Shown here one piece after another: positions 132 through 10,739 of a stretch of 10,739 bases of DNA. The translations under genes were made by a program, and so were the position numbers. A model generated the notes under the pieces. The model made no database searches. It was given only the letters and a program-made list of their open reading frames with translations, and was not told the DNA's origin. The first letter of the stretch is position 1; the number at the start of each line of letters is the position of its first letter. The stretch is from Flavobacterium psychrophilum (GTDB lineage Bacteria; Bacteroidota; Bacteroidia; Flavobacteriales; Flavobacteriaceae). Where the stretch lies: the NCBI GenBank assembly GCA_022729635.1, contig DZAU01000003.1, positions 1 through 10,739 of the forward strand, given 5' to 3'.

Positions 132-180
132 TTTTTAGATTTCTGATTGTTGATTTCAGATTTAGAATTTATATCCAACA
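132..180. repeat. Short imperfect GATTTC/TTTAGA repeats between yicC and the R-M cassette
   Basis: The spacer after yicC holds reiterated TTTAGA (134-139, 161-166) and GATTTC (138-143, 152-157). The pair TCTGA...TCAGA could form a weak stem. It is low-complexity DNA of the kind that often fills flavobacterial intergenic regions. There is no clear terminator with a T-tract after a GC stem, so read-through from yicC is possible. Confidence 0.4.
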
Positions 181-188
181 AAATAGTT

Positions 189-196
189 TAAATTTG
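189..196 (+). promoter_or_regulatory. Probable -7 promoter element for the methyltransferase gene
   Basis: TAAATTTG matches the Bacteroidota -7 consensus TANNTTTG exactly and lies 30 bases before the ATG at 227, giving a leader of roughly 25 bases. The expected upstream -33 TTG/TTTG at 17-23 bases is not clear; there is only TTTA at 168-171. The call therefore rests on the -7 element and its position. It would give the cassette transcription independent of yicC. Confidence 0.45.
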
Positions 197-226
197 GTTT
201 TTTAGCCATAGACAAACATTTAAAAT

Positions 227-1336
227 ATGCTTTTTGAAGAATATCAATATTTTAATTACCAATTTCCTGAACCTCAATACTTAGGAGCAAAACACACGCT
301 TTTGCCTTGGATAAATCAATTTATTCCAAAAAATGTAAAAACGACTGTTGATGCTTTTGCAGGCTCTCAATCTGTTGGGTTTCTATTTAAACAACTTGGT
401 TACAAAGTAATTACAAATGATTTTTTAAACTTTAACAATCAAATAGGTAAAGCTCTTATTGAAAATAATTTTCAAAAACTTGAAGCTAAAGATTTGCAAC
501 TGCTTTTTCAACCTGCAACAAATAAAAATGATTTTGAACTGATAGAAAATACATTTACGAATGTATTTTTTGAAAAAGAAGAAGCCCATTTTTTAGATAA
601 TTTCAGAGCAAATATTCCATTATTAGAAAATGAATTTAAACAAGCACTTGCTTTTACTGCCATAAATCGCAGTATGACTAGAAAAATAACAATGGGGCAT
701 TTCGGGCATACTCAAGCTTTAGTTTACGCAAATGACCCAGAAAGAATAAAACGCAACCGAAGTTTAATAAGACCTATTAAAGAAATATTTGAAGAAATTG
801 TACCTAAATACAACAATGCGGTTTTTGACAATAAACAAGCGAATGTAAGTTTTAACCAAAACATTTTAACTTTATTACCCAATATAAAAAATGTCGATTT
901 AGCCTATTTTGATCCTCCATACTGTGATAGTCACGCAGATTACCAGGGGTTTTACCATTTATTGGAAACTTATACAGAATATTGGAAAGACAAAGAATTT
1001 ATAAATGGCATAAAACGTTATGAACCTCAACGATTTAGCGGTTTTGATAAAAAAAGAGAGGTCATTTCTTCTTTTGAAAAACTTTTTGAATTGTCTGAAG
1101 ATATTCCACATTGGTTGATTAGTTATAACAATCGCAGTTATCCGGGAATTGAAGAATTTGAAAAATTAATTTCCAAATACAGAAATGTAAAAATAGAAGC
1201 CAAAACCTACCAAAATGGAAGAGGCGGAAAAGGAAGTGTTGCCGGAAGTCAGGAAATTTTATTTGTTTGTAGTCCAAAAAAGAAACATTTTGTTTCAACT
1301 AACCACAAAGAACAACTTGTAAATGAAGGATTTTAA
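227..1336 (+). CDS. D12-class N6-adenine DNA methyltransferase (type II R-M)
   Basis: This 369-residue protein shows the alpha-class (Dam/DpnIIA-like, D12) motif order. YLGAK at 18-22 corresponds to motif X, DAFAGS at 42-47 is the S-adenosylmethionine-binding motif I, and ITNDF at 62-66 lies in the motif II position. DPPY at 229-232 is the catalytic motif IV of N6-adenine methyltransferases, and SYNNRSY at 299-305 plus a Gly-rich stretch near 331-340 close the fold. The region of about 70-220 between motifs I and IV should carry target recognition; the recognised sequence cannot be read from it. It would methylate adenine in host DNA to protect it from the adjacent nuclease. It overlaps the next gene by 14 bases, suggesting translational coupling. 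The ATG at 227 follows a -7 element at a sensible distance. It is AT-richer than gmk and gpsA. The class call is strong; the pairing as an R-M system is inference. Confidence 0.9.
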   Translation: MLFEEYQYFNYQFPEPQYLGAKHTLLPWINQFIPKNVKTTVDAFAGSQSVGFLFKQLGYKVITNDFLNFNNQIGKALIENNFQKLEAKDLQLLFQPATNKNDFELIENTFTNVFFEKEEAHFLDNFRANIPLLENEFKQALAFTAINRSMTRKITMGHFGHTQALVYANDPERIKRNRSLIRPIKEIFEEIVPKYNNAVFDNKQANVSFNQNILTLLPNIKNVDLAYFDPPYCDSHADYQGFYHLLETYTEYWKDKEFINGIKRYEPQRFSGFDKKREVISSFEKLFELSEDIPHWLISYNNRSYPGIEEFEKLISKYRNVKIEAKTYQNGRGGKGSVAGSQEILFVCSPKKKHFVSTNHKEQLVNEGF

Positions 1337-2429
1337 TTATTGGAAAAAATTACACGAAAGCGAAATGCTTTCGGAGTTTAGCGAAGACAAAACAGGACTT
1401 TTATGGTTAAAGACTAAATCCATTATAAGGAAAGAACTTATTGTTGAATTTGTCAAAGTCAATAAAATTTTACTAATAGAAACCGCTCTGGCAAAACAAT
1501 TTATTGAATTATTCAATTTGTTGCGTAATGATGTTGAAAATTCCAATAAAATTCTAGACGAGTTTATAAAAACAGAAAACAACAAACAAGTTCAATTAAT
1601 TGATGCAACTCAATTGGTTTCAGAATTATACAAACTTAAAAATTTCGATTGGGGAGGAGATTATCAAAACTCATTAGACAAATATTTGGTAAGTAGATAT
1701 GTGAAAGTTCATAAATCTTATGACTCACTTCTTTCGAAATTTGAAACAGAAATCAATGTTGCGGTTCAAGGATATGTTTTGAATAGTTGGTACAATCACT
1801 GGAGCAGCATTTTAATTGAACATATTTTTAAATCACATTCCGAAGTTTTACCAACCGTAGGTCAAATAAAAAGTGTTGATTTTTTTATCAATGACATCCC
1901 ATTTGATTTAAAAGTAACCTATTTACCTGCGGAATATATAAAAACTAAACGTAAAGAAAAGGGACTGCCAGTAGAGATAACATTTTTAAAAAAGAAAGCC
2001 GAAGAAGCTAAAATAGCTTTTGACAAAAAAGCAAAACCAGCCGACATTTTATATGAAATTGTCGAAAAAATGAAAGACAAAAACGATGGGTTTTGCAAGC
2101 AAGTATTACGAACTTTAAAAAACGAAAAACTTGAAATATTAAAAGAAGCACAAGAAAATCCTAAAATGTTGGCAACTTGGCTTTATGAAAATCAAGGCGA
2201 AATGCGTTTTGGTTCGGAAAACCGTTTGTTTCTTGTTCTCGTTGACACAGATGATTTTACCAATTCTTGGAAATTAAAAAGAAATCTTGATCTTTTAAAA
2301 CCAACAATTCTTTCGTATTTAGATAATTTTAAAAACAAAAAATTAGAGGACTTAAAAGTGTCATTTGAATTCAAAGGTAAGCATCAAACTTTCACAGCAT
2401 TAACAGACATACTTTTTGTAGTTAAATAA
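1323..2429 (+). CDS. Putative type II restriction endonuclease, PD-(D/E)XK-like
   Basis: I do not recognise the exact family of this 368-residue protein. The central segment has SVDFFINDIPFDLKV at 184-198. An Asp (186), a short hydrophobic strand and then DLK (195-197) fit the D-Xn-(D/E)XK arrangement of PD-(D/E)XK nucleases. Glu166 on a preceding helix could be a further metal ligand. The N-terminal part (1-150) is helical and charged. The C-terminal part contains a RLFLVLVD strand (301-308) and a Lys-rich helical region at about 222-275. The ATG lies inside the 3' end of the methyltransferase gene in another frame, the usual layout for co-expressed R-M pairs. A sampled 60-base line (1441-1500) has about 28% G+C against about 48% in a sampled gpsA line (4501-4560), hinting at foreign origin. 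The nuclease function is inferred from the motif plus the neighbour; a different defence-related role is possible. Confidence 0.72.
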   Translation: MKDFNYWKKLHESEMLSEFSEDKTGLLWLKTKSIIRKELIVEFVKVNKILLIETALAKQFIELFNLLRNDVENSNKILDEFIKTENNKQVQLIDATQLVSELYKLKNFDWGGDYQNSLDKYLVSRYVKVHKSYDSLLSKFETEINVAVQGYVLNSWYNHWSSILIEHIFKSHSEVLPTVGQIKSVDFFINDIPFDLKVTYLPAEYIKTKRKEKGLPVEITFLKKKAEEAKIAFDKKAKPADILYEIVEKMKDKNDGFCKQVLRTLKNEKLEILKEAQENPKMLATWLYENQGEMRFGSENRLFLVLVDTDDFTNSWKLKRNLDLLKPTILSYLDNFKNKKLEDLKVSFEFKGKHQTFTALTDILFVVK

Positions 2430-2445
2430 TTCTTTAAAACAATCA

Positions 2446-3015
2446 ATGAAAAAAGGAAAATTAATAGTTTTTTCAGCACCATCGGGATCGGGGAAAACCA
2501 CCATCGTTAGGCATTTGTTGGGAAAAGAAGACTTAAATTTAGAGTTTTCGATTTCGGCAGCAACACGACCAGCTCGTGGCGAAGAAGTGAACGGAAAAGA
2601 TTATTATTTTATTTCTATTGAAGAATTCAAAAAGCACATCAAAGCCGAAGATTTTGTAGAATGGGAAGAAGTGTATAGAGATAATTTTTACGGCACTTTA
2701 AAAAGCGAAGTCGAACGCATTTGGGCAAAAGGAAAAAATGTAATTTTTGATATTGATGTTGCCGGAGGATTACGAATTAAACACAAATTTCAGGAGGAAA
2801 CTTTGGCTGTTTTTGTAAAACCACCAAGCGTGGACGAACTTAAAAGAAGACTCAAAGAACGCTCCACCGAAAGCGATGACAAAATTAATATGCGGATTGC
2901 AAAAGCTTCGGTAGAACTGGCAACTGCTCCACAATTTGACAAAATCATTAAGAATTATGATTTAGAAACCGCCAAGGAAGAAGCGCATCAATTGGTAAAA
3001 GAATTTGTAAAATAG
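2446..3015 (+). CDS. gmk: Guanylate kinase
   Basis: Guanylate kinase converts GMP and ATP to GDP and ADP in the cytoplasm, an essential step of purine nucleotide synthesis. The 189-residue length is typical. The P-loop APSGSGKT lies at 11-18. The GMP-binding segment SAATRPARGEEVNGKDYYF follows at 38-56, then the FDIDVAGG strand at 101-108, and the Arg-rich lid RRLKERSTES at 134-143. The ATG is 16 bases past the nuclease stop, and no promoter or terminator is obvious in that gap. In this genome gmk is therefore probably transcribed from the cassette promoter or from yicC upstream. A 75-base repeat-filled spacer and nadD follow. All key motifs appear intact. Confidence 0.97.
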   Translation: MKKGKLIVFSAPSGSGKTTIVRHLLGKEDLNLEFSISAATRPARGEEVNGKDYYFISIEEFKKHIKAEDFVEWEEVYRDNFYGTLKSEVERIWAKGKNVIFDIDVAGGLRIKHKFQEETLAVFVKPPSVDELKRRLKERSTESDDKINMRIAKASVELATAPQFDKIIKNYDLETAKEEAHQLVKEFVK

Positions 3016-3021
3016 GTGCTA

Positions 3022-3082
3022 GGTTTTGGGTCTAGGGTATTAGTAAACCTAGAACCCAAAACCCAAAACCTAAAACCTAAAA
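3022..3082. repeat. Intergenic hairpin plus AAAACCY heptamer repeats between gmk and nadD
   Basis: GGTTTTGGGTCTAGG (3022-3036) pairs with CCTAGAACCCAAAACC (3048-3063), with one bulged base and a loop of about 11 bases. The right arm runs into tandem 7-base units AAAACCC, AAAACCT, AAAACCT up to about 3082. It looks like a dispersed simple repeat carried by many flavobacterial spacers. There is no T-tract, so it may attenuate or protect the transcript rather than end it. Confidence 0.75.
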
Positions 3083-3090
3083 TATGAAAT

Positions 3091-7757: not shown

Positions 7758-8501
7758 CTATTTCACTTCCCTAATCGCCGTTTTTTCAATCCAACCTTCG
7801 GTTCCGTCGGTCAATTGAATTTTTTTCCAGTTTTCTAACGTTTCCTGAACAAAAACTTTGGTTCCTTCGTGGAGTGTAAACACGGTATTACTTGCCGCTT
7901 GTGGTTCACTTTTTACCAAAACCATTTCGGCAAAAACAATCGCTGGTCTTTCGTTGTCAAAATCATTTTTCTCGGAAATTGCCGCTGAAACACTGATAAT
8001 CAGTAAAAAAATTAGCGCAAACATTCCAAAGAAATAAATCCTCTTTGTTGCTGTTATTTGTGAAAAATAATAGCCGATAAAAAACACTAAAAACAGCGTT
8101 GAAAATCCAACCGAAATCCACGCCCAGGTATTAAAATGAAAAACAGAAGTAAAATCGTGAACCATTTTTGAAAAGCCCACTTTTGGAATCTCTTTTACTT
8201 CGTCGATAGTTAATTTTTGGGCGAATTTCAAATTGTTTTTTGTCTCAATATCTTCTGGATTGAGTACTAATGCTTTTTCGTAATTGTAAATTGCCGGTCC
8301 AACCTTATTCAATTTATAATAGCAATTTCCGAGATTGAAATACAATTCAGCCGAATGTTTTTTTGATGCCAAAACACTTTCATATTCTGATATGGCTTGT
8401 TCGTATTTCCCCTTTTGATACAAAGCATTCCCTTTTTCGAAGCCGCTTTGTGCAAAGAAAACATGGGTTGTAAGTAAAAGTATAAAAAGTATGTTTTTCA
8501 T
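7758..8501 (-). CDS. batE: BatE-like protein: TPR, two membrane segments and SH3-like domain
   Basis: The 247-residue product starts with a signal-like hydrophobic stretch (MKNILFILLLTTHVFFAQ). TPR helices follow at about 19-86 (GNALYQKGKYEQAISEYESVL; LYFNLGNCYYKLNKVGPAIYNYEKAL). Two membrane segments lie at about 126-147 and 156-175. The C-terminal 186-244 contains VLVKSEPQAASNTVFTLHEG and DGTEGWIEK, the pattern of a bacterial SH3-like domain. This architecture, directly downstream of batD, is that of BatE. Bat proteins are linked to aerotolerance in Bacteroides and to envelope functions with MoxR ATPases. It is the last gene of the cluster, separated from batD by an 88-base repeat-filled spacer. 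Confidence 0.9.
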   Translation of the reverse strand: MKNILFILLLTTHVFFAQSGFEKGNALYQKGKYEQAISEYESVLASKKHSAELYFNLGNCYYKLNKVGPAIYNYEKALVLNPEDIETKNNLKFAQKLTIDEVKEIPKVGFSKMVHDFTSVFHFNTWAWISVGFSTLFLVFFIGYYFSQITATKRIYFFGMFALIFLLIISVSAAISEKNDFDNERPAIVFAEMVLVKSEPQAASNTVFTLHEGTKVFVQETLENWKKIQLTDGTEGWIEKTAIREVK

Positions 8502-8589: not shown

Positions 8590-10341
8590 TTATTTTATCT
8601 GTTTTTCCAAATCCGAAATTATCAATACTGCTTTATCAAAATCCTGTTGGATGGCCGAACTTGACGTTAACGCATATCGTGCCAATTCACAATTTTCGGT
8701 CAGATCGATAAAATCGATTATCGTTTGAGCATTTACATTTCTAGAAGCCAAAAGTTTTTGTATGTTACTTTTACTCATATCCGAGGTTTCTATGTGTAAT
8801 TTAGCTTTCAGAAAATTGTGCATTGCCTTTTCTAATGCCACATAAAACGGTTCTTTGTTGTTGATTTGTTTTTTGGCTTCCGATAAATATTTTTTGGCCA
8901 ATCTGTTGTTCATTTTTATTCTGTTGCCAAAAACATCGCTGTCTATGGCTTCTTTTTTCTTTTTGAATAACACAATCGCCGGCAGAATTAAAAATGGTAA
9001 AAACAGCAATCCATAAAATAAATTTGACCCGAAGAAATCTTCCTTTTTCATTGATGAAAGCTTACTTTTTAGCTTAATGAATTTGAATTGTTCGTTACTC
9101 GAAATTATATTTTTGCCTGTTCCTTGTGTGGTTGCTACTTGGTCATTGACAGATGGACCATCAAGAACGTTAATCATTATTTCTGGTGAACTTATGGTTT
9201 TATACGTTCCTGAACCCAAATCGAAATAGGAAAATTGCATTGGTTTTATTGGGTAATTCCCTTTAAACTGCGGAATTATGGTATAACTGTCGGATATTTT
9301 CCCTGACATTCCCGATAAGGCTGTATTCACTTTTTCGCTATGAACCGGATCATAGGTTTCTAGTGAATTTGGAACCACAGGTTTTGGTAAATTGAATAAT
9401 TTCATATTCCCGTTTCCGGAAACACTAACCACTAAATCCAGACTTTCGCCATTTTTTAAATTGTTTTTTGAAGGTGTTACTCTAAAGTCAAATTTTCCTA
9501 CTGCTCCCGAAAAATCTGCCGGTTTTCCTGCCTCAGGAAGGGATTTTACTGCGATTGTTTTGGCTCCGGCAGAAACTCTTTTGTTTCCATTGGTGACTAC
9601 CACTCGTCCAAACATATCTCGGCGATTAGTAGGTAATTGCACATCAATGTCTAATGACAAAGGTTCAATTACCAATTTGCCTGATTTTTGTGGATATAAA
9701 ACCGTTTTTCGAAGCACGACATAGCGATATTTTTCTCCTTTAAACATTCCTTCTTCGCCAACAAGTTGTTTAATATCGATGTTTTGACTCCAAAAATCGT
9801 TGTATTTAGGTTTGTCTAATTCCCTCCAATTTGTAATTCCAATATTGTAGCTAAAATAAAGCTTGTAAACTACTGTTATTGGTTCGTTAATGTATGGATT
9901 CGTTTTCGAAATATCGGCAACGAGATAAATATTATCATCGGCAGAAATCTGTGTGTCGTTCGGGTCTTTTGGCATTTCGACTGCTGCGGTGACATTAATT
10001 TTTATTGGAGTTGTTTTATAAATTTGACCGTTATATTCAATCGCAGCCTGCTTAATTACTATATTTCCTCTTTGGGTTGGCAAAAGATAATAGGAATATA
10101 TTTTTTCAAAAGAACTTTTTCCATTTACCCACGACTGACTCACTTGCTGACTTGGTCCGGCAATGATTTTAAATCCCTCAAAAGAAGGTTGGTTAAAGTT
10201 GTCTCCATCAATATTCATTACAAAATCGATGCGAAGCCTTTCGTTTAATCCAAGCGTGGTTTTGCTGACTTTTGCCTCAAATTGTACTTGAGCCAAAAGC
10301 GATTGAGTAATTAAAAACAGTATTAATATAATTCTTTTCAT
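8590..10341 (-). CDS. batD: BatD-family envelope protein
   Basis: The 583-residue protein has a signal peptide (MKRIILILFLITQSLLAQ). A long beta-rich periplasmic part (about 20-400) contains repeated immunoglobulin-like strands, for example LNERLRIDFVMNIDG at 32-46, NEPITVVYKLYFS at 152-164 and KNGESLDLVVSVSGNGNMK at 296-314. A single membrane segment lies at about 442-459 (YGLLFLPFLILPAIVLF), followed by a charged cytoplasmic helical tail (460-583). This is the normal BatD layout. BatD works with VWA proteins BatA/BatB, TPR protein BatC and a MoxR ATPase. Their exact role is unsettled, with aerotolerance and envelope stress proposed. It is flanked by batC-like and batE genes on the same strand. 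The length and domain order look complete. Confidence 0.92.
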   Translation of the reverse strand: MKRIILILFLITQSLLAQVQFEAKVSKTTLGLNERLRIDFVMNIDGDNFNQPSFEGFKIIAGPSQQVSQSWVNGKSSFEKIYSYYLLPTQRGNIVIKQAAIEYNGQIYKTTPIKINVTAAVEMPKDPNDTQISADDNIYLVADISKTNPYINEPITVVYKLYFSYNIGITNWRELDKPKYNDFWSQNIDIKQLVGEEGMFKGEKYRYVVLRKTVLYPQKSGKLVIEPLSLDIDVQLPTNRRDMFGRVVVTNGNKRVSAGAKTIAVKSLPEAGKPADFSGAVGKFDFRVTPSKNNLKNGESLDLVVSVSGNGNMKLFNLPKPVVPNSLETYDPVHSEKVNTALSGMSGKISDSYTIIPQFKGNYPIKPMQFSYFDLGSGTYKTISSPEIMINVLDGPSVNDQVATTQGTGKNIISSNEQFKFIKLKSKLSSMKKEDFFGSNLFYGLLFLPFLILPAIVLFKKKKEAIDSDVFGNRIKMNNRLAKKYLSEAKKQINNKEPFYVALEKAMHNFLKAKLHIETSDMSKSNIQKLLASRNVNAQTIIDFIDLTENCELARYALTSSSAIQQDFDKAVLIISDLEKQIK

Positions 10342-10396: not shown

Positions 10397-10739
10397 TTAC
10401 CAATCTTTTTCGGTCTGAACTGGTTTTCCTTTTACTTTTTGGGCATTTACCTTGTCTTGAATTTTCTTTTCTTCGTTGTTTACGGCGTCTAAAAGATTCT
10501 CTGTTCTCTGTTTAGAAATTCCTCCCGGTATTGGTTTAGGTTTTCCTTGGTCATCCTTTGGTTTTTCGTCTTTTTTATCCTTGTCATTGTTTCCTTTATC
10601 GTCTTTTTTGTCTTTTTTGTCTTTGTCACCGTTATCTTTCTTCTCTTTTTCTCCGTCTTTTTTCTCGTCTTTTTTATCCTTGTCTTTGTCCTTATCGTCC
10701 TTTTTTGGAGGATTTTCTTTTAGCATTTTTTTTGCCAAA
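10397..10739 (-). CDS. batC: BatC-like TPR protein, C-terminal part only
   Basis: The frame is open to the window edge; the real start lies beyond base 10739. The first complete codon in view is a leucine TTG that should not be taken as a start. The visible 113 residues begin LAKKMLKENPP. An extreme Lys/Asp/Glu-rich tract of about 55 residues (DKDKDKKDEKK-type) follows, and then a conserved-looking tail GGISKQRTENLLDAVNNEEK...TEKDW. The tail GGIS-K-x-ENLLDAVNNEEK is typical of flavobacterial BatC proteins, whose TPR repeats precede it. The charged tract is probably a disordered linker. The position upstream of batD and batE on the same strand supports the call. The VWA genes batA and batB would be expected further right. 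Confidence 0.82.
   Translation of the reverse strand, partial: LAKKMLKENPPKKDDKDKDKDKKDEKKDGEKEKKDNGDKDKKDKKDDKGNNDKDKKDEKPKDDQGKPKPIPGGISKQRTENLLDAVNNEEKKIQDKVNAQKVKGKPVQTEKDW

Follow-up and report, generated by a model that had tools for sequence, protein, structure and literature searches.

A putative type II restriction-modification pair within the yicC-gmk interval of Flavobacterium psychrophilum, with CATATG as its probable site

Results

Architecture of the yicC-gmk interval

The window, i.e., the whole 10,739-nucleotide stretch of Flavobacterium psychrophilum DNA analysed here, begins inside yicC, whose 3′ end is an open frame on the plus strand (1–131, TAG stop at 129–131) encoding a 42-residue tail; tails 90–95% identical to it adjoin gmk in other Flavobacterium. 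The next host gene, at 2446–3015 (plus strand), has Flavobacterium relatives of 93–95% identity and we take it to be gmk (guanylate kinase), from the name given in a first-pass annotation of this DNA and from its motifs. Between these flanks lie two plus-strand open reading frames, a D12-class DNA adenine methyltransferase of 369 residues (227–1336) and a predicted restriction endonuclease of 368 residues (1323–2429) that is of PD-(D/E)XK type by motif. The two share 14 nucleotides (1323–1336), as the first-pass annotation had described, and the identical overlap recurs in 20/20 relatives of the locus for which the two gene ends could be aligned.

The left spacer (132–226, plus strand) is host-like up to about position 170, resembling by eye the yicC-gmk spacer of another Flavobacterium locus (L104), and continues as the upstream region of the cassette; the junction between host spacer and cassette would lie within 132–226. 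The upstream region contains TAAATTTG at 189–196 (plus strand), 38 nucleotides before the methyltransferase ATG, an exact match to TAnnTTTG, which we take to be the consensus of the -7 type element. TAnnTTTG is present within 100 nucleotides upstream of the pair in 15 of 40 stretches; 500 mononucleotide shuffles gave 2.0 such stretches on average and 8 at most. The earlier attribution of an own -7 element to the pair is thus borne out, and this element comes with the cassette and may serve as its promoter.

The pair was also said to be AT-richer than the housekeeping genes, at about 28% against 48% G+C. The direction of this statement stands and its size does not: G+C is 29.6% in the pair, 36.7% in gmk, 36.6% in gpsA, 33.7% in nadD and 34.9% in the remaining window, and with a difference of only about 4–7 points we dropped base composition as an argument for insertion. 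No integrase or transposase is encoded as an open reading frame between yicC and gmk, in agreement with the first-pass annotation, and no repeat or mobile gene was seen at the cassette junctions. Elsewhere in the window, words resembling AAAACCTA/CCCAAAACC form an inverted repeat in the gmk-nadD spacer (3016–3090), and a Lys/Asp-rich minus-strand frame (10397–10738) lies beside the open reading frames 7758–8501 (TPR-like) and 8590–10341 (large, secreted-type); these three frames are reminiscent of a BatA–E type operon.

The pair is absent from the yicC-gmk interval of relatives

gmk was detected in 290 of 299 Flavobacterium genomes, and we inspected 37 gmk loci (30 best matches and eight loci from carrier genomes, one being shared), of which 34 were judged after leaving out two loci in which yicC was not found (L086, L100) and one that repeats another (L089, repeating L088). 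In all 34, yicC is next to gmk across a spacer of 21–892 bases (median 96), and nothing in the locus is related to either cassette gene. The site is likewise empty in carrier genomes, e.g., G005, whose own pair is located elsewhere on the chromosome. Because the pair is missing from 34/34 yicC-gmk loci, we conclude that the cassette was inserted at the window site, as first suspected; far from all relatives carrying the pair at this place, which had been named as grounds for abandoning the idea, none of the inspected loci does.

The place of the cassette is unusual for the genus, and the distribution of the nuclease is patchy, near relatives (82–83% identity) being present in only two of the 299 sampled Flavobacterium genomes, a 40% identical relative in one and compact relatives (see below) in five. 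A phage or plasmid carrier of the cassette was considered and is unsupported, since phage and plasmid records contain no nuclease relative and IMG/VR contains one in a single stretch of 97 candidates (L081, 40% identity).

Four relatives (L082, L091, L099 and L106) contain another insert, in each case of very similar length (yicC-gmk spacer of 523–526 bases) and starting with a possible small gene; insertions seem to be tolerated at this place. Other Flavobacterium have different short repeats or a 400–890-base insert in the yicC-gmk spacer; given these differences, the yicC-gmk and gmk-nadD spacers change fast.

Catalytic motifs of the two proteins

The product of 227–1336 matches PF02086 (MethyltransfD12) at 71.4 bits, above the Pfam cut-off of 22 (E 1.2e-19), and the PADLOC Type II MTase model at E 3e-56. 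Together with motif I (DAFAGS, 350–367, plus strand) and motif IV (DPPY, 911–922, plus strand), the latter kept in 40/40 related D12 loci, these matches place it among the D12 N6-adenine methyltransferases, although at a distance from the Dam subfamily, whose model it matches at 23.9 bits against a cut-off of 114.85.

The nuclease, in turn, is named by no family library, as the first-pass annotation had anticipated. There was no convincing match in Pfam (best E 0.26) or PADLOC (best E 0.025), none in NCBIfam, none in PHROGs at E <= 0.1, and the best PDB sequence stood at E 2. A search of 5.8 billion proteins returned 3818 relatives among 7996 scored candidates, and a second one with the Bergeriella nuclease (L071) as the query returned 2748; among the 120 relatives listed from the first search, with identities of 80–90%, every given name is hypothetical or uncharacterized. 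Four residues, Glu166 (1818–1820), Asp186 (1878–1880), Asp195 (1905–1907) and Lys197 (1911–1913; all on the plus strand), form an E..D..DxK motif that is invariant in 61 aligned relatives and also in a 9-relative alignment. In the AlphaFold model (pLDDT 91.7, pTM 0.88), Glu166 is predicted in helix 146–170, which is followed by strands 175–182, 185–189 (with Asp186) and 192–200 (with Asp195 and Lys197) and, later, by strand 301–307. The modelled core thus has the alpha-beta-beta-beta order of PD-(D/E)XK enzymes with the Asp and the (D/E)xK on neighbouring strands, differing from these by a long helical N-terminal part and a helical insertion. Since a Foldseek comparison of the model with solved structures gave nothing at E <= 0.001, the fold is assigned from motif and topology, and it is by motif that the nuclease is a PD-(D/E)XK enzyme.

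Partner methyltransferases across relatives

We compiled 81 loci with a nuclease relative, 80 from 84,980 genomes (which contain at least that many) and one from a viral contig. At 79 of the 81 listed loci the nuclease is directly preceded by a methyltransferase gene; the two exceptions (L060, L077) are cut off by a contig start within the nuclease. The pair is thus kept together in relatives, and both proteins carry catalytic motifs. The upstream enzyme is of two unlike kinds, a D12 relative at 41 loci and, at 38 of the other 40, a methyltransferase of about 480–590 residues (a 218-residue fragment at L051) that matches PF01555 in the members scanned. Ten proteins of this second family carry DPPH (seven), DPPY (two) or DFPY (one), and the D12 protein gave no significant alignment with a second-family member (E 0.13).

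In a nuclease tree of 70 sequences, from which 14 loci had been removed for breaks or short matches, 34 of the 35 D12-paired nucleases form one group (support 93/88) beside others paired with the second family; the remaining one (L054) has a long branch and an unsure placement. At least two changes of methyltransferase type are needed on this tree, so that the modification enzyme was exchanged once or twice, in one direction or the other, and the nuclease kept. The family is present in Bacteroidota, Pseudomonadota, Cyanobacteriota, Spirochaetota, Planctomycetota and other phyla, a spread that speaks for transfer between phyla, although several of the records are metagenome bins and possibly misassigned (e.g., L012, labelled Bifidobacterium).

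Two observations on gene content stand apart. At five loci (L017, L018, L058, L059 and L061) the nuclease gene reads as broken by a stop or frame change and the methyltransferase aligns nearly whole, either because the nuclease decays first or through sequencing error. In two Treponema loci, a PIN-domain protein (PF16289; PADLOC PDC-S34) directly follows the nuclease (L043:2794–3783 and L056:7106–8095).

Depletion of CATATG in carrier genomes

A genome that encodes a restriction enzyme tends to lose the sites of that enzyme, and for this reason we scored all palindromes, using a Markov model to compare observed with expected counts. In the flanks of the 41 D12 loci (282 kb), CATATG is found 9 times against 37.3 expected, and in 745 kb from elsewhere in 22 D12 carrier genomes 20 times against 101.9, ranking first of 64 palindromes in both sets. 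Within the 745 kb, it is the most depleted of all 2080 hexamers, with an observed/expected ratio (O/E) of 0.20 compared with 0.44 for the next. It lies below expectation in all 20 carrier genomes tested singly (G312 and G314, with short contigs, were left out), compared with an O/E of 0.71 (500 kb) or 0.65 (400 kb, 20 regions) in Flavobacterium without a near relative, these control regions including one from G118, which carries the 40% identical relative. The window itself contains no CATATG (1.5 expected).

Whole-genome counts point the same way in Flavobacterium: CATATG has a median density of 95.3 per Mb among 291 non-carriers and densities of 15.3, 24.7, 26.5, 28.8, 45.0 and 71.8 per Mb in the six carriers (rank test p 1.0e-4). 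GTATAC, counted as a control, is likewise reduced in the carriers, being low in some of them (p 0.010). The depletion is uneven. Carrier G001 is only mildly low, at quantile 0.25 of the Flavobacterium comparison, in two depleted carriers, G005 and G006, the nuclease gene looks broken, and among the 40 D12 carriers counted whole, G318 (Dyadobacter, L028) shows no depletion, with 1041 CATATG in 6.2 Mb (168 per Mb).

Among relatives with the second methyltransferase, CATATG has an O/E of 0.26 (rank 5) in the close group, a set that includes L060 with its upstream gene cut off by the contig start; in the far group the O/E is 0.62 (rank 15/64) in flanks and 0.34 (rank 4) in other regions, and in 60 kb of Bergeriella the word ranks 26. 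Four carriers among 196 Treponema genomes (p 0.003) and four among 53 Nostoc genomes (one a fragment; p 0.014) are low in CATATG; as many non-carriers are just as low, the depletion is not specific to the nuclease system in these two genera. CATATG density varies widely within Nostoc (G376–G426) and Treponema (G427–G619), and because many of their genomes lacking the nuclease are low, other systems for CATATG, or other causes, must be frequent there. Taken together, word counts clearly favour CATATG as the site of the D12 type and favour it reasonably well for the other types.

A compact branch in Flavobacterium

The compact relatives, of about 203 residues, occur in five Flavobacterium genomes (loci L122–L126). 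They keep the counterparts of Glu166, Asp186, Asp195 and Lys197 and lack the first 92 residues and about 65 residues after the catalytic strands. By eye, a D12 gene (MNYIGSK...DPPYN kind) adjoins the compact nuclease in four of the five loci (L122, L123, L124 and L126); L125 lacks it and has instead, after the nuclease, a cytosine-methyltransferase-like start and a helix-turn-helix gene. Of all tetramers in 312 kb from the five genomes, CATG is depleted most strongly (217 found, 739 expected; O/E 0.29), with an O/E of 0.23–0.37 in each genome compared with 0.75 in other Flavobacterium, of which two of 20 regions are equally low (0.30 and 0.32); GATC is also low in the compact carriers (0.41). 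CATG is thus no more than a lead for the site of the compact branch. GTATAC had been considered for it and was rejected because CATG stood out. A search with the compact nuclease gave 1436 relatives, some of which one source labels MinE, surely wrongly.

Discussion

We consider it very probable that the pair is a type II restriction-modification system of NdeI specificity that spread horizontally and was inserted between yicC and gmk. The D12 enzyme would methylate an adenine, whichever it may be, in CATATG of the host genome, and the PD-(D/E)XK nuclease would cut incoming DNA at unmethylated CATATG. The two genes would be translated together through their 14-nucleotide overlap, modification gene first, from a promoter-like element travelling with them, on a cassette of roughly 2.26 kb that horizontal transfer would have brought to its place. 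The restriction-modification reading of the first-pass annotation is upheld by the PF02086 and PADLOC matches and the nuclease motif. Its suggestion of a new type II specificity most likely does not hold, since genome-wide word depletion points to CATATG, the NdeI and FauNDI site. The system would then be of an ordinary kind, with a likely known site.

It is unlikely, though worth weighing, that the pair is a type II system for another, perhaps undescribed, site and that CATATG is depleted by co-resident restriction-modification systems. Type II systems do cluster in the same hosts, one study reporting some 10 methyltransferases in each F. psychrophilum strain, not all of them assigned (PMC11837570); GTATAC, GTGCAC and TTCGAA are depleted in D12 carriers too, and the many Treponema and Nostoc genomes low in CATATG without the nuclease fit such an explanation. 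However, CATATG leads all hexamers by its O/E, it is depleted in 20/20 genomes drawn from many families and in each of the three branches of the 368-residue type, and a co-resident system would need to accompany the nuclease system across phyla. An asymmetric site (type IIS or IIG-like), as with other D12 enzymes such as FokI, is the least probable of the readings weighed here: PHROG and PADLOC matches of the D12 protein do include long D12 proteins that we take to be FokI-like, but there is a single methyltransferase domain only, and among words with an expectation of 100 or more, counted on both strands, no non-palindromic 5- or 6-mer in carriers falls below an O/E of 0.47. We regard it as very improbable that the nuclease is a nicking, repair or abortive-infection effector with the methyltransferase as a mere neighbour, a reading that its anonymity in family libraries and the empty Foldseek result would allow; the near-constant presence of an upstream methyltransferase of either kind argues against it, as do the invariant E..D..DxK site and the site depletion in carriers.

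If the reading as a CATATG-specific system is true, it would give thousands of hypothetical proteins a restriction function and a predicted site, which would be of use for reading defence in Bacteroidota and other phyla and for choosing DNA for Flavobacterium genetics. In open-licence papers on the nuclease family, on NdeI/FauNDI genes and on CATATG methylation, no description of the nuclease was found, and a term search in PMC4322650, PMC4752239 and PMC4081073 gave nothing on the CATATG site. The family, currently hypothetical in listings, deserves a name.

A wider proposal, which we hold tentatively and at somewhat less than even chances, is that there is one PD-(D/E)XK family in which a compact 203-residue core cuts CATG and the longer branch, with about 92 extra N-terminal residues and an insertion of roughly 65 residues after the catalytic strands, cuts CATATG, the methyltransferase having been swapped and the site kept. 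If true, this would show in nature how a recognition site was lengthened and the partner enzyme replaced, and the family would offer a test of shifts between 4-bp and 6-bp sites and of how a replacement of the protecting methyltransferase is survived.

Relation to known systems

NdeI comes from Neisseria (now Bergeriella) denitrificans and recognizes CATATG; FauNDI comes from Flavobacterium aquatile. The site predicted for the window pair is theirs, and the carriers of the nuclease in Flavobacterium add a likeness to FauNDI, for which a cloning primer containing CATATG is given in one paper (PMC4837579). Bergeriella denitrificans NBRC 102155, by name the species of NdeI, encodes a nuclease relative with an upstream methyltransferase (L071), although this nuclease is only 38–40% identical to that of the window and is paired with the second methyltransferase family. 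The likeness to NdeI and FauNDI is one of predicted site and host taxon; no named NdeI or FauNDI sequence was found. In F. psychrophilum NCIMB 1947T (ATCC 49418), whose D12 enzyme is encoded at locus L007, eight of 15 systems are reported to have been assigned by PacBio (PMC11837570). For the compact branch, the nearest parallel, by description only, is UpaP162 of Ureaplasma, which is reported to be a blunt-cutting CATG enzyme beside a methyltransferase and without a known domain (PMC6191088).
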